Assembly (NCBI RefSeq): GCF_000226975.2
Contig: NZ_CP019285.1
Location: 2,790,001-2,854,000 of the forward strand
DNA length: 64,000 bases
Direction: 5' to 3'
From: Halobiforma lacisalsi AJ5
Lineage (GTDB): Archaea > Halobacteriota > Halobacteria > Halobacteriales > Natrialbaceae
Position numbers and translations under genes: made by a program. The notes below the pieces were generated by a model. It was not told where the DNA came from. It ran no database searches and saw nothing but the letters and a program-made list of their open reading frames with translations. Below, in pieces: positions 3,059 to 58,268 of this stretch. Position 1 is the first letter of the stretch. Each line of letters opens with the position of its first letter.

Positions 3059-4165
3059 CTACCGGACCGCTCGCCGGTACTGGATCGGCCACTCCTCGGG
3101 AGCGTCCGTCTCGAGGTCCTCGGCTGCCCGGAGCCCGAAGTACGGATCCCGGAGGAACTCGCGACCGACCAGCACGAGGTCCGTGCGGTCGTTTCGCACG
3201 AGCGCGTCGGCCTGTTCGGGTTCGGTGATCCCGCCGACGGCACCGACGGCCGCATCCGACCCCTGGCGAACCGCTTCGGCCAGCGGCACCTGAAAGTTCG
3301 GCCCGCCCGGCGCGTCCTGCTCGGGGTGGAGCCCGCCGGAACTGACGTCGATCAGGTCGACACCCAGCTCGGCGAGGTCGTCCGCCAGCCGAACCGACTG
3401 GTCGACGTCCCAGGAGTCGCGGTCCTCGAGCCAGTCCGTCCCGGAGATGCGGACGAAGACCGGCTTCCCCTCGGGCCAGACGTCGCGGACGGCCCGGACG
3501 ACCTCCCGGAGGAGCCGCGTTCGGTCCTCGAAGCTCCCCCCGTAGTCGTCCTCGCGGCGGTTCGTGACCGGCGAGAGGAACTCGTGGAGCAGGTAGCCGT
3601 GGGCGGCGTGAACCTCCGCGATCTCGAAGCCGGCCTCGAGCGAGCGCTCGGCGGCGTCGCGGTAGGCCTCGATCACGCCCTCGATGTCGTCCTGGGTCGC
3701 CTTCCGCATGGCGGGTCGATCACCCGAGAACGGCGGGTACGCGTCGGGCGAAGGGGAGAGAACTTCCCAGCCGTCCGCGCCGTCGGGGTCGATCTCGTCC
3801 GGGGCGATGGGAACGTTGCCGTCCCACGGACGGGTCTTGCTGGCCTTGTGACCCGCGTGGGCGAGCTGGATCGCCGGTACGCTCCCCTGCTCACGGACGA
3901 ACTCGGTGATCGGCCGCAGGGCTTCGGCGTGCTCGTCGCTCCAGATCCCGAGGTCGTGGGGCGTGATCCGTCCCTCGGGCGAGACGGCGGTCGCTTCGGT
4001 CATCACGATGCCCGCGCCGCCGACGGCCCGACTGCCGAGGTGGACGCGGTGCCACTCGGTCGGCAGCCCGTCGGGGTCACAGGAGTACTGACACATCGGC
4101 GAGACCGCGATCCGGTTGGGTATCTCGCAGTCCCGCAGCGACAGCGGAGAGAAAAGGTCACTCAT
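3059..4165 (-). CDS. NADH:flavin oxidoreductase (Old Yellow Enzyme family, YqjM-like)
   Basis: 368-residue FMN-dependent ene-reductase of the OYE family, a TIM barrel that reduces activated C=C bonds with NAD(P)H. Visible family features: N-terminal V-S-P-M-C-Q-Y-S flavin-loop (YqjM-type Cys), H-A-G-H-K, the H-A-A-H-G-Y-L-L-H-E-F-L-S-P substrate/FMN motif, and D-D-Y-G-G-S-F-E-D-R-T-R. The C-terminal half has G-G-I and the G-R-E-F-L-R-D-P-Y FMN-phosphate site. A longer frame reaches 4423; the ATG at 4165 gives the normal family N-terminus. The physiological substrate cannot be told from sequence. Confidence 0.93.
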   Translation of the reverse strand: MSDLFSPLSLRDCEIPNRIAVSPMCQYSCDPDGLPTEWHRVHLGSRAVGGAGIVMTEATAVSPEGRITPHDLGIWSDEHAEALRPITEFVREQGSVPAIQLAHAGHKASKTRPWDGNVPIAPDEIDPDGADGWEVLSPSPDAYPPFSGDRPAMRKATQDDIEGVIEAYRDAAERSLEAGFEIAEVHAAHGYLLHEFLSPVTNRREDDYGGSFEDRTRLLREVVRAVRDVWPEGKPVFVRISGTDWLEDRDSWDVDQSVRLADDLAELGVDLIDVSSGGLHPEQDAPGGPNFQVPLAEAVRQGSDAAVGAVGGITEPEQADALVRNDRTDLVLVGREFLRDPYFGLRAAEDLETDAPEEWPIQYRRAVR

Positions 4166-28882: not shown

Positions 28883-29290
28883 ATGGGCAGCGACGGCGGC
28901 AGGGACTACAGTCCCACCGAGATCTTCGCGATCAAGTTCGTGCTGGCCGACGTCATCATCATCGCGGCGTTGGTACTGGCCGGTCCGTGGGTCGCGGTCG
29001 CCATCACCGGCCTGTTCGTCCTCAGTTTCCTGCTCCTGTGGTATCTGATTCAGGCAGAGCCGTTCGCCGACGATGAGCCGATGGGAGAGCGGGAAGTGGC
29101 GAGCGAGGACGCCGGCGTCGACCCCGTCACGAAACTCCAGCAGCGGTACGCCGCGGGCGAACTCTCCGACGCCGAGTTCGAGGCAAAACTCGAGCGCCTG
29201 ATCGAGGGCAACGAGCGGGCCGAGAGCGCAGGGATCGACACCGAAGAACTGGAACTGGAACTCGAGTTCGAGCGCTCCGGTCCCGAGTGA
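28883..29290 (+). CDS. SHOCT-domain membrane protein
   Basis: 135-residue protein with two adjacent N-terminal membrane helices (about 18-58), an acidic stretch, then a short C-terminal SHOCT motif (L-Q-Q-R-Y-A-A-G-E-L-S-D-A-E-F-E-A-K-L) near 88-108, and a Glu-rich tail. SHOCT motifs are oligomerisation or interaction segments in many prokaryotic membrane proteins. Function unknown. Confidence 0.85.
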   Translation: MGSDGGRDYSPTEIFAIKFVLADVIIIAALVLAGPWVAVAITGLFVLSFLLLWYLIQAEPFADDEPMGEREVASEDAGVDPVTKLQQRYAAGELSDAEFEAKLERLIEGNERAESAGIDTEELELELEFERSGPE

Positions 29291-29355
29291 GTCGGGATGC
29301 GGAGCCGTCACCGCGAACCAAACACTCAATCGCCGTCCGGCCCTACTACTGTGTG

Positions 29356-30273
29356 ATGACCGACTACGAGGGCGCGATCCTGGACGTGGACGGGACGATC
29401 GTCCGGGGCGACCAGTTGATCCCGGGGGCGAGCGACGGCCTCCGGGCGCTCGAGGACGCGGGCGTCTCCCGGCTGCTGTTTTCGAACAATCCGACCCGGG
29501 GGAGCGACCACTACCGGGAGAAACTCGCGCCCCACGGCGTCGACATCGGACCCGACCGCGTGTTGACCTCCGCGACGGTGAGCGCGTCGTATCTCGCCCG
29601 GAACCACCCCGACGCACACGTCTACCTCGTCGGCGGGAACCGTCTCGCGTCGATCCTCGAGGACGCGGCGATAAGCGTAACCGACGATCCCGAGGCCGCG
29701 GACGTCGTGTTGGGCTCGTTCGACCGGGGGTTCTCCTACGGCACGCTCGGGGACGCGCTGCGGGCCTTCGAGAACGAGCGCGTCGGCGAAACCGAGGGCC
29801 AAACGGCGAGTTCTGGGGCTCGGGCGAACGGGGGTGCCGACGGCGATGATGACGGCGAGATGGACGGCGACGCCGACGCCAACGCTGGCGCTGGCGCTGT
29901 TACCATTGACGGCCCCGTCCCCTTCTACGGCACCGATCCCGACGCGACGATACCCGTCGAGAACGGGACGATCCCGGGATCGGGCGCGATCCTCGCCGCG
30001 ATGGAGGCCGTCGCCGGCCGCGAACCCGATGCCGTCCTCGGCAAGCCGTCCGACGTCGCCGCCGACGCTGCGCTGGATCGGCTCGGCGTCGCTCCCGAAT
30101 CGGTCCTCGTCGTCGGCGACCGGCTGGACACGGACATTGCGCTCGGCAACCGGGCCGGGATGACGACCGCGGTGGTCCTCTCGGGGGTGACCGACCGTGC
30201 GACCCTCGAGGAATCGCCGATCCAGCCGGATTACGTCCTCGAGTCGCTCGGGGAGGTCGAGCGGTTGCTCTGA
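29356..30273 (+). CDS. HAD-IIA family phosphatase (NagD/AraL-like)
   Basis: 305-residue HAD hydrolase. Motif I D-V-D-G-T-I (8-13), motif II S-N-N-P-T-R, and C-terminal motif III/IV L-G-K-P-S-D and V-G-D-R-L-D-T-D-I all intact, so it should be an active sugar- or nucleotide-phosphate phosphatase. The subclass IIA cap lies between. An Asp/Gly/Ala low-complexity insertion (about residues 155-180) interrupts the cap region. The frame begins at 29287; ATG 29356 is the family start. The stop codon is shared by a palindromic repeat (next entry). Confidence 0.92.
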   Translation: MTDYEGAILDVDGTIVRGDQLIPGASDGLRALEDAGVSRLLFSNNPTRGSDHYREKLAPHGVDIGPDRVLTSATVSASYLARNHPDAHVYLVGGNRLASILEDAAISVTDDPEAADVVLGSFDRGFSYGTLGDALRAFENERVGETEGQTASSGARANGGADGDDDGEMDGDADANAGAGAVTIDGPVPFYGTDPDATIPVENGTIPGSGAILAAMEAVAGREPDAVLGKPSDVAADAALDRLGVAPESVLVVGDRLDTDIALGNRAGMTTAVVLSGVTDRATLEESPIQPDYVLESLGEVERLL

Positions 30274-30354
30274 TACGGCTTGCTGTATCGATTTCCCGGC
30301 GCAACCGCCGCCCGGGTCGCGGGTGTGCCGGCACTGACGGACAGGAACCCGTAT
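30273..30354. repeat. 82-bp palindromic repeat, copy 1
   Basis: Bounded by ATACGGCTTGCTGT and ACAGGAACCCGTAT, 14-bp ends that are inverted repeats with two mismatches. An inner stem (element positions 24-34 with 49-59) can pair at 10 of 11 positions. It begins on the final A of the HAD-phosphatase TGA stop. A second copy, same length and about 68% identical by my hand count, is at 58009-58090. Confidence 0.75.
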
Positions 30355-30419
30355 GAGTCGGGCCGAATTCCGTCCTCTTCGGGAAAACGTATTTGCCGAA
30401 CGGGTTGCTATACTCACAT

Positions 30420-30632
30420 ATGAGGGACCGACTCACCAACGTGCTTCGAAGGGCCCGCTACGCAGCGATCGGGGCAGCCATCGGAGCCGCAATCGGGGCA
30501 CTGTTCAGTCGAAACGCCGCGAGTACCGGGGGCGCGATCGGGGGCCTCGTCGGCGCCATCGTCGCGGAGACGAGGGAAACGGCCGACGAACTGCTCGAGG
30601 AAGCCAAAGAACGAACCGGGAAGACGGACTGA
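30420..30632 (+). CDS. Small glycine-zipper membrane protein
   Basis: 70-residue protein: basic N-terminus (R-D-R-L-T-N-V-L-R-R-A-R), then A-A-I-G-A-A-I-G-A-A-I-G-A-L-F and G-G-A-I-G-G-L-V-G-A-I-V-A, two Gly/Ala zipper helices likely to insert in or associate with the membrane, and an acidic/amphipathic end. ATG 30420 follows the repeat element and a CGTATTTGCCG element at about 30388-30398 which may be its promoter. Unknown function. Confidence 0.7.
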   Translation: MRDRLTNVLRRARYAAIGAAIGAAIGALFSRNAASTGGAIGGLVGAIVAETRETADELLEEAKERTGKTD

Positions 30633-30763: not shown

Positions 30764-32005
30764 ATGGAATACAGTCACCGCTACCACGCCTACCCAACAC
30801 AAGAGGTAGCGGCTGAACTGGAACATCATCTTGACGTTCATCGCCAACTCTACAACCACGTCCGATGTGACTACGAACAAGCCCCGGAAGACGACAAGCC
30901 GAGCGAGTACGACCAGAACAACAAACTTCCCGAGTGGAAACGCAAGTGGCCGGTTTTCGGTGAACTGCACTCGAAGGCCGCACAAGCTACCGTCGCTCGT
31001 TTTCACCGTAACCTCTCGAACCTTCGTAAGAAAAAGGAGAAAGGGTACAAGGTTGGTCGGCTCAAACGGCAAGCACCCACTGAGTACCAGAGCGTGACGT
31101 ACAGTCAGTCTGGTTTTGACCTCGATGAAAAGAGGGGCTACGACAAATACGCATACGTTCGCTTCAGCAAGATTGGCTGGGTCAAAATCCGGTATTCTCG
31201 CCCGATTCCCGACCACACCACCATCAAAGAAGTCACATTCAAGAAAGAGACGACTGGCGAGTGGTTCGTGTCCTTCGGTCTGGAAACCGACGACACCGAC
31301 TTGCCCGAGAAACCCGACGTGGAGTCGCTCGACACGAGCAACAGTGTCGGGATTGACCTCGGCATCCTCAACTACATCCACACATCGGACGGTAAGACCG
31401 TGGATTGGCTCGACCTCGAAGACGACTACGAGCGACTCCGACGCGAGCAACGCAAACTCTCACGGAAAGAGAAGGGGTCGAACAACTACGAGAAACAACG
31501 GCGAGAAGTGGCGAAGGGTAAGCGCCATCTCAAGCGGAAGGTGCTGGACTATCAGCACAAGATTACGACGTGGCTCGTCAAAGAGTACGACGCCGTGTTC
31601 GTGGAAGACCTCAACGTATCAGGGATGCTTCAGGGAGAGGGGAACGCTCGGAACAAGCAGGATGTGGCGTGGCGACAGTTCATCACGCTCCTCGAATACA
31701 AGGCCGACCTCTACGGCGCTCACGTTGTTCAGGTCGAAGCACGAGGGACGACGAAGGAGTGCGCGTCGTGTGGTGTGGAGACGGCGAAGCCCATCTGGGT
31801 CAGGGAACACTCCTGCCCGTCGTGTGGGTTCAAGACAGATCGGGACGCAAATGCGGCGATGAACGTCTTGCAGAGAGGGTTTTCTGAATTAGGGCTGGGA
31901 TGGCCCGAATCAACGCCTGTGGAGACTGTGACCGCTACGGGCACCGCTGATTTTCAGCGCGTGTCTGCAAGTCACGTCATCGAAACAGGAAGCCTGCCCT
32001 CGTGA
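30764..32005 (+). CDS. tnpB: TnpB RNA-guided endonuclease (IS200/IS605 family)
   Basis: 413-residue TnpB. The RuvC catalytic residues appear intact: D198 (V-G-I-D-L-G), E281 (V-F-V-E-D-L-N) and D361 (T-D-R-D-A-N-A-A-M-N). The zinc finger C333-A-S-C336 / C351-P-S-C354 is complete. The N-terminal wedge/REC region includes H-R-Q-L-Y-N. TnpB proteins cut DNA at a TAM-adjacent site chosen by an omega-RNA made from the element's right end and favour retention of the element. No frameshift or stop is seen, so it may be functional. Confidence 0.95.
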   Translation: MEYSHRYHAYPTQEVAAELEHHLDVHRQLYNHVRCDYEQAPEDDKPSEYDQNNKLPEWKRKWPVFGELHSKAAQATVARFHRNLSNLRKKKEKGYKVGRLKRQAPTEYQSVTYSQSGFDLDEKRGYDKYAYVRFSKIGWVKIRYSRPIPDHTTIKEVTFKKETTGEWFVSFGLETDDTDLPEKPDVESLDTSNSVGIDLGILNYIHTSDGKTVDWLDLEDDYERLRREQRKLSRKEKGSNNYEKQRREVAKGKRHLKRKVLDYQHKITTWLVKEYDAVFVEDLNVSGMLQGEGNARNKQDVAWRQFITLLEYKADLYGAHVVQVEARGTTKECASCGVETAKPIWVREHSCPSCGFKTDRDANAAMNVLQRGFSELGLGWPESTPVETVTATGTADFQRVSASHVIETGSLPS

Positions 32006-43030: not shown

Positions 43031-44200
43031 ATGTCGACCGACGTCCGCGACGGGCTCTCGTTCGCCAGGACCGTCGTCAACGGGATCCAGGACCGGAACG
43101 TCCCGTTCATGGCCGCGAGCATCGCGTACCAGGCGTTTATCTCACTGTTGCCACTGCTCGTGCTCCTGTTTTTCCTCGTCACGCTGGTCGGGGACGAGAC
43201 GTTCGCGACGCAGGTCACCGAGACGACTGAGGGCTTCCTCCCCGAGAGCGGCCAGTTGCTCGTCGAGGACGCGCTCGAGGACTCGCCCGCGACGGCGGGG
43301 TCGACGTTGATTGGCCTCGTCGTGCTCCTGTGGGGGTCGTTGAAGATCTTCCGCGGACTCGATACGGCGTTTTCGGAGATCTACGGCACCTCGGAGTCGA
43401 ACTCGTTCGTCAGCCAGTTGCGGGACGCGGTGCTGGTCTTCGGTGCGCTCGGCGGGGCACTGTTCGCGGCCGCCGCGATGGGGATCGTGTTCGCGTTCCT
43501 GCCGAACGTACCGGGTTTCGGCCTGTTGCAGTCGCTGTTGCTGGTCATCGTGCTCGTCCTCGCGTTCTACCCGATGTACTACTACTTTCCGGACGTCGAC
43601 GTTTCGCGGCGGGAAGTGATCCCCGGGGTCGTCCTCGCCGCCGTCGGGTGGATGGCCCTGCAGTCGCTGTTCCGGGTGTACGTCTCCGTTGCCGCCGACT
43701 CCGAAGGCGCAGGGCCGCTCGGGGCGATCCTCCTCTTGTTGACCTGGCTCTACTTCGGCGGCCTGGTGTTGCTCTCCGGCGCGGTCGTCAACGCGATCGG
43801 TACGGGGTACCTCGAGCCGGGGGTCGACGAAGAAGCCGAAACGGAGACCGACGAGGACGAGACCAATACACCGGCCGTTGGGGAGTCGATCGCCGACTCC
43901 GATCGCGACCCGTTCGTCGACGACCGCGCACGCGAACGCGAACGACTCGCCGACCGCGCGGCGAAACTCGAGCGCGAACGCGATCAGTTGCGCAACGATC
44001 TCGCGGCCCAGCGACGACGCCGTTACCGGCTCGAGGACCGGGTCGACGACCTGGCGGAACGGACCCGCGAACTCGAGGCCGAGAACGGACGGTTGCGCCG
44101 GGAACTCGAGGCACAACGTGACCCAACCTGGAAGCAAGCCCTGCAGCAGGCTCTGGAACGCGTCGGCGACGTTCGGATCGGCGTCCTCGAGCGGAGATGA
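43031..44200 (+). CDS. YihY/BrkB-family membrane protein with C-terminal coiled coil
   Basis: 389 residues. The YihY/UPF0761 domain (about 1-262) has A-A-S-I-A-Y-Q-A-F-I-S-L-L-P, six hydrophobic helices, F-Y-P-M-Y-Y-Y-F-P-D, and the late W-L-Y-F-G-G-L-V-L-L-S-G-A. An acidic linker follows, then about 300-365 is a charged coiled coil (R-E-R-E-R-L-A-D-R-A-A-K-L). Despite older annotation it is not an RNase BN; transport or envelope roles have been suggested for the family. The coiled-coil tail is the unusual part. Confidence 0.9.
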   Translation: MSTDVRDGLSFARTVVNGIQDRNVPFMAASIAYQAFISLLPLLVLLFFLVTLVGDETFATQVTETTEGFLPESGQLLVEDALEDSPATAGSTLIGLVVLLWGSLKIFRGLDTAFSEIYGTSESNSFVSQLRDAVLVFGALGGALFAAAAMGIVFAFLPNVPGFGLLQSLLLVIVLVLAFYPMYYYFPDVDVSRREVIPGVVLAAVGWMALQSLFRVYVSVAADSEGAGPLGAILLLLTWLYFGGLVLLSGAVVNAIGTGYLEPGVDEEAETETDEDETNTPAVGESIADSDRDPFVDDRARERERLADRAAKLERERDQLRNDLAAQRRRRYRLEDRVDDLAERTRELEAENGRLRRELEAQRDPTWKQALQQALERVGDVRIGVLERR

Positions 44201-57232: not shown

Positions 57233-58009
57233 ATGCACGTCGACACGGACGACGGCGTACTCGAGATCACGTTCGATCGACCGGGGGTCCTCAACGCGAT
57301 CACGCGCGAGACCGCCGTTACCCTCGCGGAGACGATCGAAGATGCCTCGCCCGAGGAGTATCACGCGATCGTCCTCTCGGGAGAGGGCGACGCATTCAGC
57401 GCTGGCGGCGACGTCGAAGCGATGGCCGAAGAACCCGTCGCGCCCCGGGCGGAATACGAGGAGGTCGAGGAAACCTTCGGTCGCGTCGTCGAGGCGATGC
57501 TCGAGTGTCCCGTGCCGATCGTCGCGAAGGTAAACGGCGACGCCGTTGGAGCGGGACTGGCGATCGTCGCGCTGTCGGACATCGCCTACGCCGCCGAGGA
57601 CGCGACCTTCTCCTGTGCCTTCGTCAAGGTCGGGTTGATTCCCGACACCGGCGGGACCTTCATGCTCCCCGAGATCGTCGGCCTGCGGACGGCAAAGAAA
57701 CTCGCGTTCACCGGGGAGTTCTTCGACGCCGAGCGTGCGGCAGACCTCGACCTCGTCAACGAGGCAGTCCCGGCCGACGAACTCGAGAAGCGGGTAACCG
57801 AGACTGTCGATCGACTCGGCCGCCGCCCCACTGACGTGATCGGCATGATGAAACAGGCGATGCACGAGAACCTGGGGCGACGCTGGGACGAGGCGCTCGA
57901 CTACGAGAACATGCTGCAGGTCCAGGCGCGGGCGACGGAGTCCCACGAGGAGGGTGTGGCCGCGTTCCTCGAGGGGAGGGAGCCGGCGTTCAACGAGTAC
58001 GACGACTGA
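57233..58009 (+). CDS. Enoyl-CoA hydratase/isomerase family protein
   Basis: 258-residue crotonase-fold protein for fatty-acid or amino-acid beta-oxidation. G-E-G-D-A-F-S-A-G-G-D-V oxyanion-hole segment (49-60 region), G-D-A-V-G-A-G-L-A-I, and V-G-L-I-P-D-T-G-G-T. A Glu (E in F-V-K-V-G or the P-E-I-V-G segment) may be catalytic. Starts ATG 57233 with TACAATTAAGAG, a TATA-like element, about 30 bp upstream. Its TGA stop overlaps repeat copy 2. Confidence 0.93.
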   Translation: MHVDTDDGVLEITFDRPGVLNAITRETAVTLAETIEDASPEEYHAIVLSGEGDAFSAGGDVEAMAEEPVAPRAEYEEVEETFGRVVEAMLECPVPIVAKVNGDAVGAGLAIVALSDIAYAAEDATFSCAFVKVGLIPDTGGTFMLPEIVGLRTAKKLAFTGEFFDAERAADLDLVNEAVPADELEKRVTETVDRLGRRPTDVIGMMKQAMHENLGRRWDEALDYENMLQVQARATESHEEGVAAFLEGREPAFNEYDD

Positions 58010-58090
58010 TACGGGTTACTGTTCGTCGGTTCCGGCGTACCCGCGACCCGGGAGGTGGGTGCGCCGGTGCATCGGGACAGCAATCCGTAT
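58009..58090. repeat. 82-bp palindromic repeat, copy 2
   Basis: Same length and placement as the copy at 30273: ends ATACGGGTTACTGT and ACAGCAATCCGTAT (13 of 14 pair, counting one G-T). Inner stem 24-34/49-59 pairs at all 11 positions including one G-T pair. It starts on the last A of the enoyl-CoA hydratase TGA. Confidence 0.78.
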
Positions 58091-58268
58091 GGGAGCGGGC
58101 GCGAGTGTCGGCCGCCCGGGACTCGAACCGCGAGTGGAGACGCTCGAACGGAGGGGCCGGCGATAGTTCGCTTTACCCGAAAGTCGGCTGAGCCCGAAAC
58201 ACGCGGCGGAACCGCCAGCCACAGCAAGCACCACCGTCTTTGGCGCGGTTGCCGTTAGTGGGAGCGCA

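Follow-up and report, generated by a model that had tools for sequence, protein, structure and literature searches.

The 80-bp palindromic elements that adjoin stop codons in Halobiforma lacisalsi AJ5 are very probably non-autonomous DNA transposons (miniature inverted-repeat transposable elements, MITEs), which duplicate a TNA target triplet, have spread recently in several lineages, frequently insert into TGA stops and would rely on a trans-acting DDE transposase for movement. What looks like fusion to the stop codon is produced by a target-site duplication (TSD) that falls within that codon and regenerates it. The family, high in copy number and recently active, occurs in a large group of salt-loving archaea; the open literature searched contained no description of it, subscription journals and ISfinder lying outside the scope of that search. 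Since insertion duplicates TGA and leaves the gene intact, the element offers a ready system for studying how transposons target safe sites, and its copies could be used as natural strain markers.

Results

The window, which is the whole 64,000-nucleotide stretch of DNA analysed, carries two copies of the element (Table 1). The original prediction had placed here two 82-bp sequences 27.7 kb apart (30273-30354 and 58009-58090), each with the A of a TGA stop as its first base, and both were confirmed, at the ends of coding sequences for a HAD-type phosphatase and an enoyl-CoA hydratase, respectively. Its hand count of 56/82 matches was exact for the two copies read on the same strand; because the reverse-complement match is better (67/82), copy 2 is inverted relative to copy 1. 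As a baseline for this comparison, random 82-mers of the window gave a mean of 23/82 matches. Another hit in the window (44042-44124) was a chance partial match and was kept out of the alignments.

Two genes follow copy 1. A small 70-aa glycine-zipper protein (30420-30632), missed by the codon-based gene caller, is encoded between the element and a lone IS605-type TnpB gene (OrfB_IS605 plus a Cas12f1-like TNB domain; 30764-32005), which lies ~410 bp downstream of copy 1. The ORFs listed around this TnpB gene include no TnpA, and no relatives of the TnpB were found in viral contigs.

Table 1. Coordinates of the element copies, their parts and their host genes in the window, and loci of a second hairpin family
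Feature	Position	Strand	Basis
HAD-type phosphatase CDS; stop codon is the copy 1 insertion site, start codon uncertain	29287..30273	+	Pfam PF13242/PF13344
Copy 1, gene-side target duplication (TGA stop of the HAD-phosphatase gene)	30271..30273	+	sequence; TSD pattern over 40 copies
Copy 1 of the 80-bp mobile element, TACGG...CCGTA	30274..30353	+	alignments, genome searches; boundary from empty site
Copy 1, outer terminal inverted repeat, left (TACGGCTTGCTGT)	30274..30286	+	
Copy 1, inner stem, left arm (CCGGCGCAACCGC)	30296..30308	+	
Copy 1, inner stem, right arm (GCGGGTGTGCCGG)	30319..30331	+	
Copy 1, outer terminal inverted repeat, right (ACAGGAACCCGTA)	30341..30353	+	
Copy 1, distal target duplication (TGA)	30354..30356	+	TSD pattern
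Enoyl-CoA hydratase/isomerase CDS ending at copy 2	57233..58009	+	Pfam PF00378
Copy 2, gene-side target duplication (TGA stop of the enoyl-CoA hydratase gene)	58007..58009	+	
Copy 2 of the element, orientation opposite to copy 1; site empty in sister species G001	58010..58089	-	
Copy 2, distal target duplication, decayed to TGG	58090..58092	+	
Second hairpin family	mid-locus in L199, L201, L203, L205, L212, L213, L217, L222, L224		

The element family has the ends TNATACGG...CCGTATNA and combines 13-bp outer inverted repeats with a 13-bp inner hairpin; the consensus layout of the aligned copies is TACGGATNNCTGT, a spacer, CCGGCGCAACCGC, a loop of ~10 nt, GCGGTTGCGCCGG, a second spacer and ACAGNAANCCGTA. 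Because outer and inner arms share a register, the whole element forms a single long, imperfect palindrome. Its length is nearly constant across genera (80-82 bp), the 13-bp outer terminal inverted repeats (TIRs) are conserved over copies, and the 80 bp have no coding capacity. Inverted ends and an internal stem had been predicted and both are present, with outer repeats of 13 bp. The predicted extent of 82 bp likewise holds for the length as delimited, but its terminal A and T lie in flanking 3-bp repeats, and the element proper is therefore 80 bp, as a clean empty site shows.

A second short hairpin family, numerous in the congener G002, has the same outer ends with another inner stem (TTACCGCCGATCGCC...GGCGATCGGCGGTAA), a combination that fits recognition of the outer ends. 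Diverged relatives with similar ends also occur in the window's own genome (L109 near 1995-2074, L110 near 1949-2028 and L112 near 2026-2105), and the inner stem of those in L109 and L110 resembles that of the second family (TACCGGTGATCG...).

The base before the element is the same as the base after it in 36/40 copies (G/G 19, C/C 16, A/A 1; Fisher's test on the G/C table, p = 1e-8). Because these flanking bases are identical and not complementary, they form a direct repeat rather than a pairing extension or longer stem. The repeat is a 3-bp TNA, usually TGA or TCA, with TTA/TTA in one G002 copy, and the target is palindrome-like, near GAC-TSA-GTC. Comparison of the window's own genome (G000) with a sister species (G001) revealed precise empty sites, including that of copy 2, with one TGA when empty and two when filled. 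In a clean pair, the empty G000 site reads GACGACTGACGAG and the filled G001 site reads GACGACTGA[TACGG...CCGTA]TGACGAG. Among 24 element-bearing gene ends of G000, G001 was filled at 16 (one of them a degenerate copy read by eye) and empty at 8; the gene ends compared were 89-98% identical between the two species. In more distant congeners the element occupied the same stop at 0/11 (G002), 0/11 (G003) and 1/13 (G004) gene ends.

Near-identical copies at unrelated sites show recent movement. Among 20 copies in G002, 21/190 pairs were identical at unrelated sites, with TSDs intact in 17/20 copies, and identical copies were also present in G021 and G001. Together, the high copy number, inverted ends, 3-bp target duplication, empty sites and recent near-identical copies support the MITE among the three options that the original prediction had put forward, the others being a REP-like element and a 3'-UTR or terminator RNA.

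The elements have themselves received insertions. One copy (L105, 59-138 and about 3818-3870; G000:C1 near 103058 and 106856) is split by a ~3.7-kb insertion, an IS with ends CTCAGCTTTGCACGTT / AACGTGCAAAGCT, so that the lone perfect TIR at 106856 is the right end of the copy at 103058. In L218 (G016), L256 878-1029 (G002) and G002:C1:2714789-2714888, one element has inserted into the end of another or immediately next to it.

A first sequence search of the window's own genome gave further copies at 75-90% identity. The covariance-model scan envisaged in the original prediction, with a model built from 35 copies, brought these to at least 61 distinct loci (E < 1e-5), all on the largest contig (C1), versus no copies on the smaller contigs C2 and C3. 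Across the order, the family is present in 59/293 genomes, mostly of the window's own family (Natrialbaceae) and 17 of them in four other families; many Natrialbaceae genomes have tens of copies, while the four other families have sparser ones. Plasmid records gave nine matches, all named Natrialbaceae, and the publicly annotated end of one gene on Natrialba magadii pNMAG01 coincides exactly with the element. A search of phage records gave no matches.

Exactly on a stop codon are 43/61 copies in G000 (42 TGA, 1 TAA), as judged from stops called by a codon-usage gene caller trained on that genome; this is a lower bound because the caller can miss genes. The predicted preference for stop codons is thus real and enriched, and it arises from insertion into TGA with duplication of the TGA. 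The set of 43 stop-associated copies is defined by a stop in the gene-side triplet; the distal one has remained TGA in just 21/43, as expected if selection retains only the stop. Noncoding CTSAG sites in the same loci are stops less often (23/84, 27%; versus 43/61, Fisher 3e-7). Were insertion tolerated at gene 3' ends alone, the expectation would rise to 23/37 (62%) and the difference from 43/61 would vanish (p = 0.5). Orientation relative to the gene is mildly biased among the 43 stop-associated copies (29:14, p = 0.03).

Discussion

The TNA duplication suggests that the mover is probably a DDE transposase of the IS1031-group/PIF-Harbinger style. The IS1031 group of IS5 has an exclusive 3-bp TNA target duplication (PMC12016507), and PIF/Harbinger elements have a 3-bp TSD within a 9-bp extended target (PMC2836001). 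By analogy, a transposase supplied in trans would recognize the outer repeats, excise or copy the element and make a 3-nt staggered cut at a palindromic target near GAC-TSA-GTC. After insertion, the gene-side TGA still terminates the gene; selection would preserve this required triplet and leave the rest of the copy to decay. Stops may be favored for two reasons: GAC TGA is frequent where genes end in this genome with its acidic proteome, and an insertion at that point leaves the protein unharmed, whereas one in coding DNA would break the gene. Motif plus tolerance is the economical reading of the stop association.

A strict definition of MITEs requires ends in common with the autonomous transposon that supplies the transposase (PMC3119063). 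Searching TIR-pattern sites in up to 12 genomes turned up no element that combines these ends with a transposase; TIR patterns that excluded the usual MITE interior led only to MITE variants, the second hairpin family or chance matches. Nor did the PF01609 loci that were read contain a partner; together these searches take in some transposase families, and a partner sharing only a few terminal bases would escape them. The PF01609 loci in G000, G002, G021 and G016 were rejected as partners, having other terminal repeats (GAGGGTGTCATAGAAC, GTCTTTAGCTAAG, GGCTCTGTTGAAATCC and others).

MITEs of the IS1031 group, like the element, are short and non-coding with terminal inverted repeats and a 3-bp TNA duplication (PMC12016507), represented here by TGA, TCA and TTA repeat pairs. 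They differ in that the TACGG... ends match no IS seen here, PF01609 transposases being present but with other ends and DUF4096-type transposases (PF13340) being absent in six genomes. Tourist-like MITEs of PIF/Harbinger (mPing) also have a 3-bp TSD in a 9-bp extended target (PMC2836001), but they are eukaryotic, and the likeness is one of working, with no homology shown. Compared by description, the nearest in kind are the short mobile repeats (SMRs) of Haloquadratum walsbyi, which are likewise haloarchaeal, ~80-110 bp long and present in tens of copies, with TIRs unrelated to known transposons (PMC3119063); one of them, HqIRS41, is 80 bp (PMC3119063). SMRs are, however, reported to lack a target duplication and to target other mobile elements, whereas the 80-bp element makes a TNA duplication and lies mostly at gene ends.

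A different kind of mobility would apply if these were REP-like palindromes or IS200/IS605-related PATEs, with a Y1 transposase moving them in single-stranded form. The element is hairpin-rich, intergenic and high in copy number, PATEs are known from haloarchaea (PMC3119063) and are likewise short, hairpin-forming and non-coding, REP/RAYT palindromes are also high-copy intergenic repeats, and the window has its lone TnpB gene close to copy 1. Yet PATEs and IS605 have neither terminal inverted repeats nor target duplication (PMC3119063), while the 80-bp element has both, and REPs are 20-40 bp (PMC3733652) compared with 80 bp plus TIRs and TSD here. This makes single-stranded movement extremely improbable, and the REP-like option does not stand as a family assignment. 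Only slightly less remote, and still very unlikely, is a functional 3'-UTR RNA, or a termination or mRNA-stability module, put after stops by selection. The 43/61 copies that begin exactly on a stop codon and the weak orientation bias would suit such a module, and the whole element can be folded as one long RNA hairpin (copy 1, -38 kcal/mol, z -2.3; copy 2, -49.8, z -5.0). Pairing across 35 copies was nonetheless 82.5% versus 82.0% with 3' arms shuffled among copies, and the covariation score was equalled by 51/500 shuffles; this lack of within-copy covariation makes it unlikely that selection maintains a 3'-UTR or terminator RNA. The hairpin appears strong at birth and not visibly maintained, given z -7.8 for the young G002 consensus versus z -2.3 for the old copy 1, whose fold is weak and which has no T-run. 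The element is also mostly missing from orthologous stop codons in congeners, and the flanking bases covary as identity, not complementarity. An Rfam scan of the window found only a tRNA, and the element matches no curated family. Conserved hairpins right after stops in such genomes can be transposon debris, not terminators, which calls for caution.

It is also conceivable, though quite unlikely, that movement depends on a site-specific system recognizing stop codons or transcript 3' ends, beyond a mere sequence motif. Young copies are at stops in 6/8 cases in G001 (subtype B) and 12-14/20 in G021, above the 27% of noncoding CTSAG sites, and the G001 share exceeds the plain CTSAG expectation (p = 0.007). 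Against this, the motif alone predicts 62% at stops if only gene 3' ends tolerate insertion, copies away from stops use the same TNA target, and just 6/20 young copies are at stops in G002, where stops may be under-called because the caller was trained on G000. Transposition into a tolerated motif is favored here, but with 6/8 in G001 and yet only 6/20 in G002, motif and tolerance may not be the whole account of the stop excess.

Subtypes of the element alternate between the sister species. A detailed comparison of 13 shared sites gave 72-94% identity for the element versus 91-98% for the adjoining gene ends, and several G001 copies resemble other G000 copies more closely than the one at the matching position. 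Moreover, 4/10 young non-shared subtype-B copies (G000 and G001 together) occupy positions that hold an older subtype-A copy in the sister species, a pattern not accounted for by simple random transposition. The alternation could stem from gene conversion, from re-insertion at hot sites or from excision followed by re-insertion, and similar 'SwitchRepeats' are listed for Haloquadratum (PMC3119063). A bolder and rather unlikely extension is that the element is directed to translation stops or transcript 3' ends, with the stop as the duplicated triplet, and that newer subtypes re-occupy old sites; if so, restoration of the stop by every insertion would amount to a built-in safe-site strategy. 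Occupation of the same stop by subtype A in one of the two sister species and by a young subtype B in the other was observed in L073, L075, L078, L293 and L297 versus G000 positions 911612, 1727582, 1011141 and 3301203.
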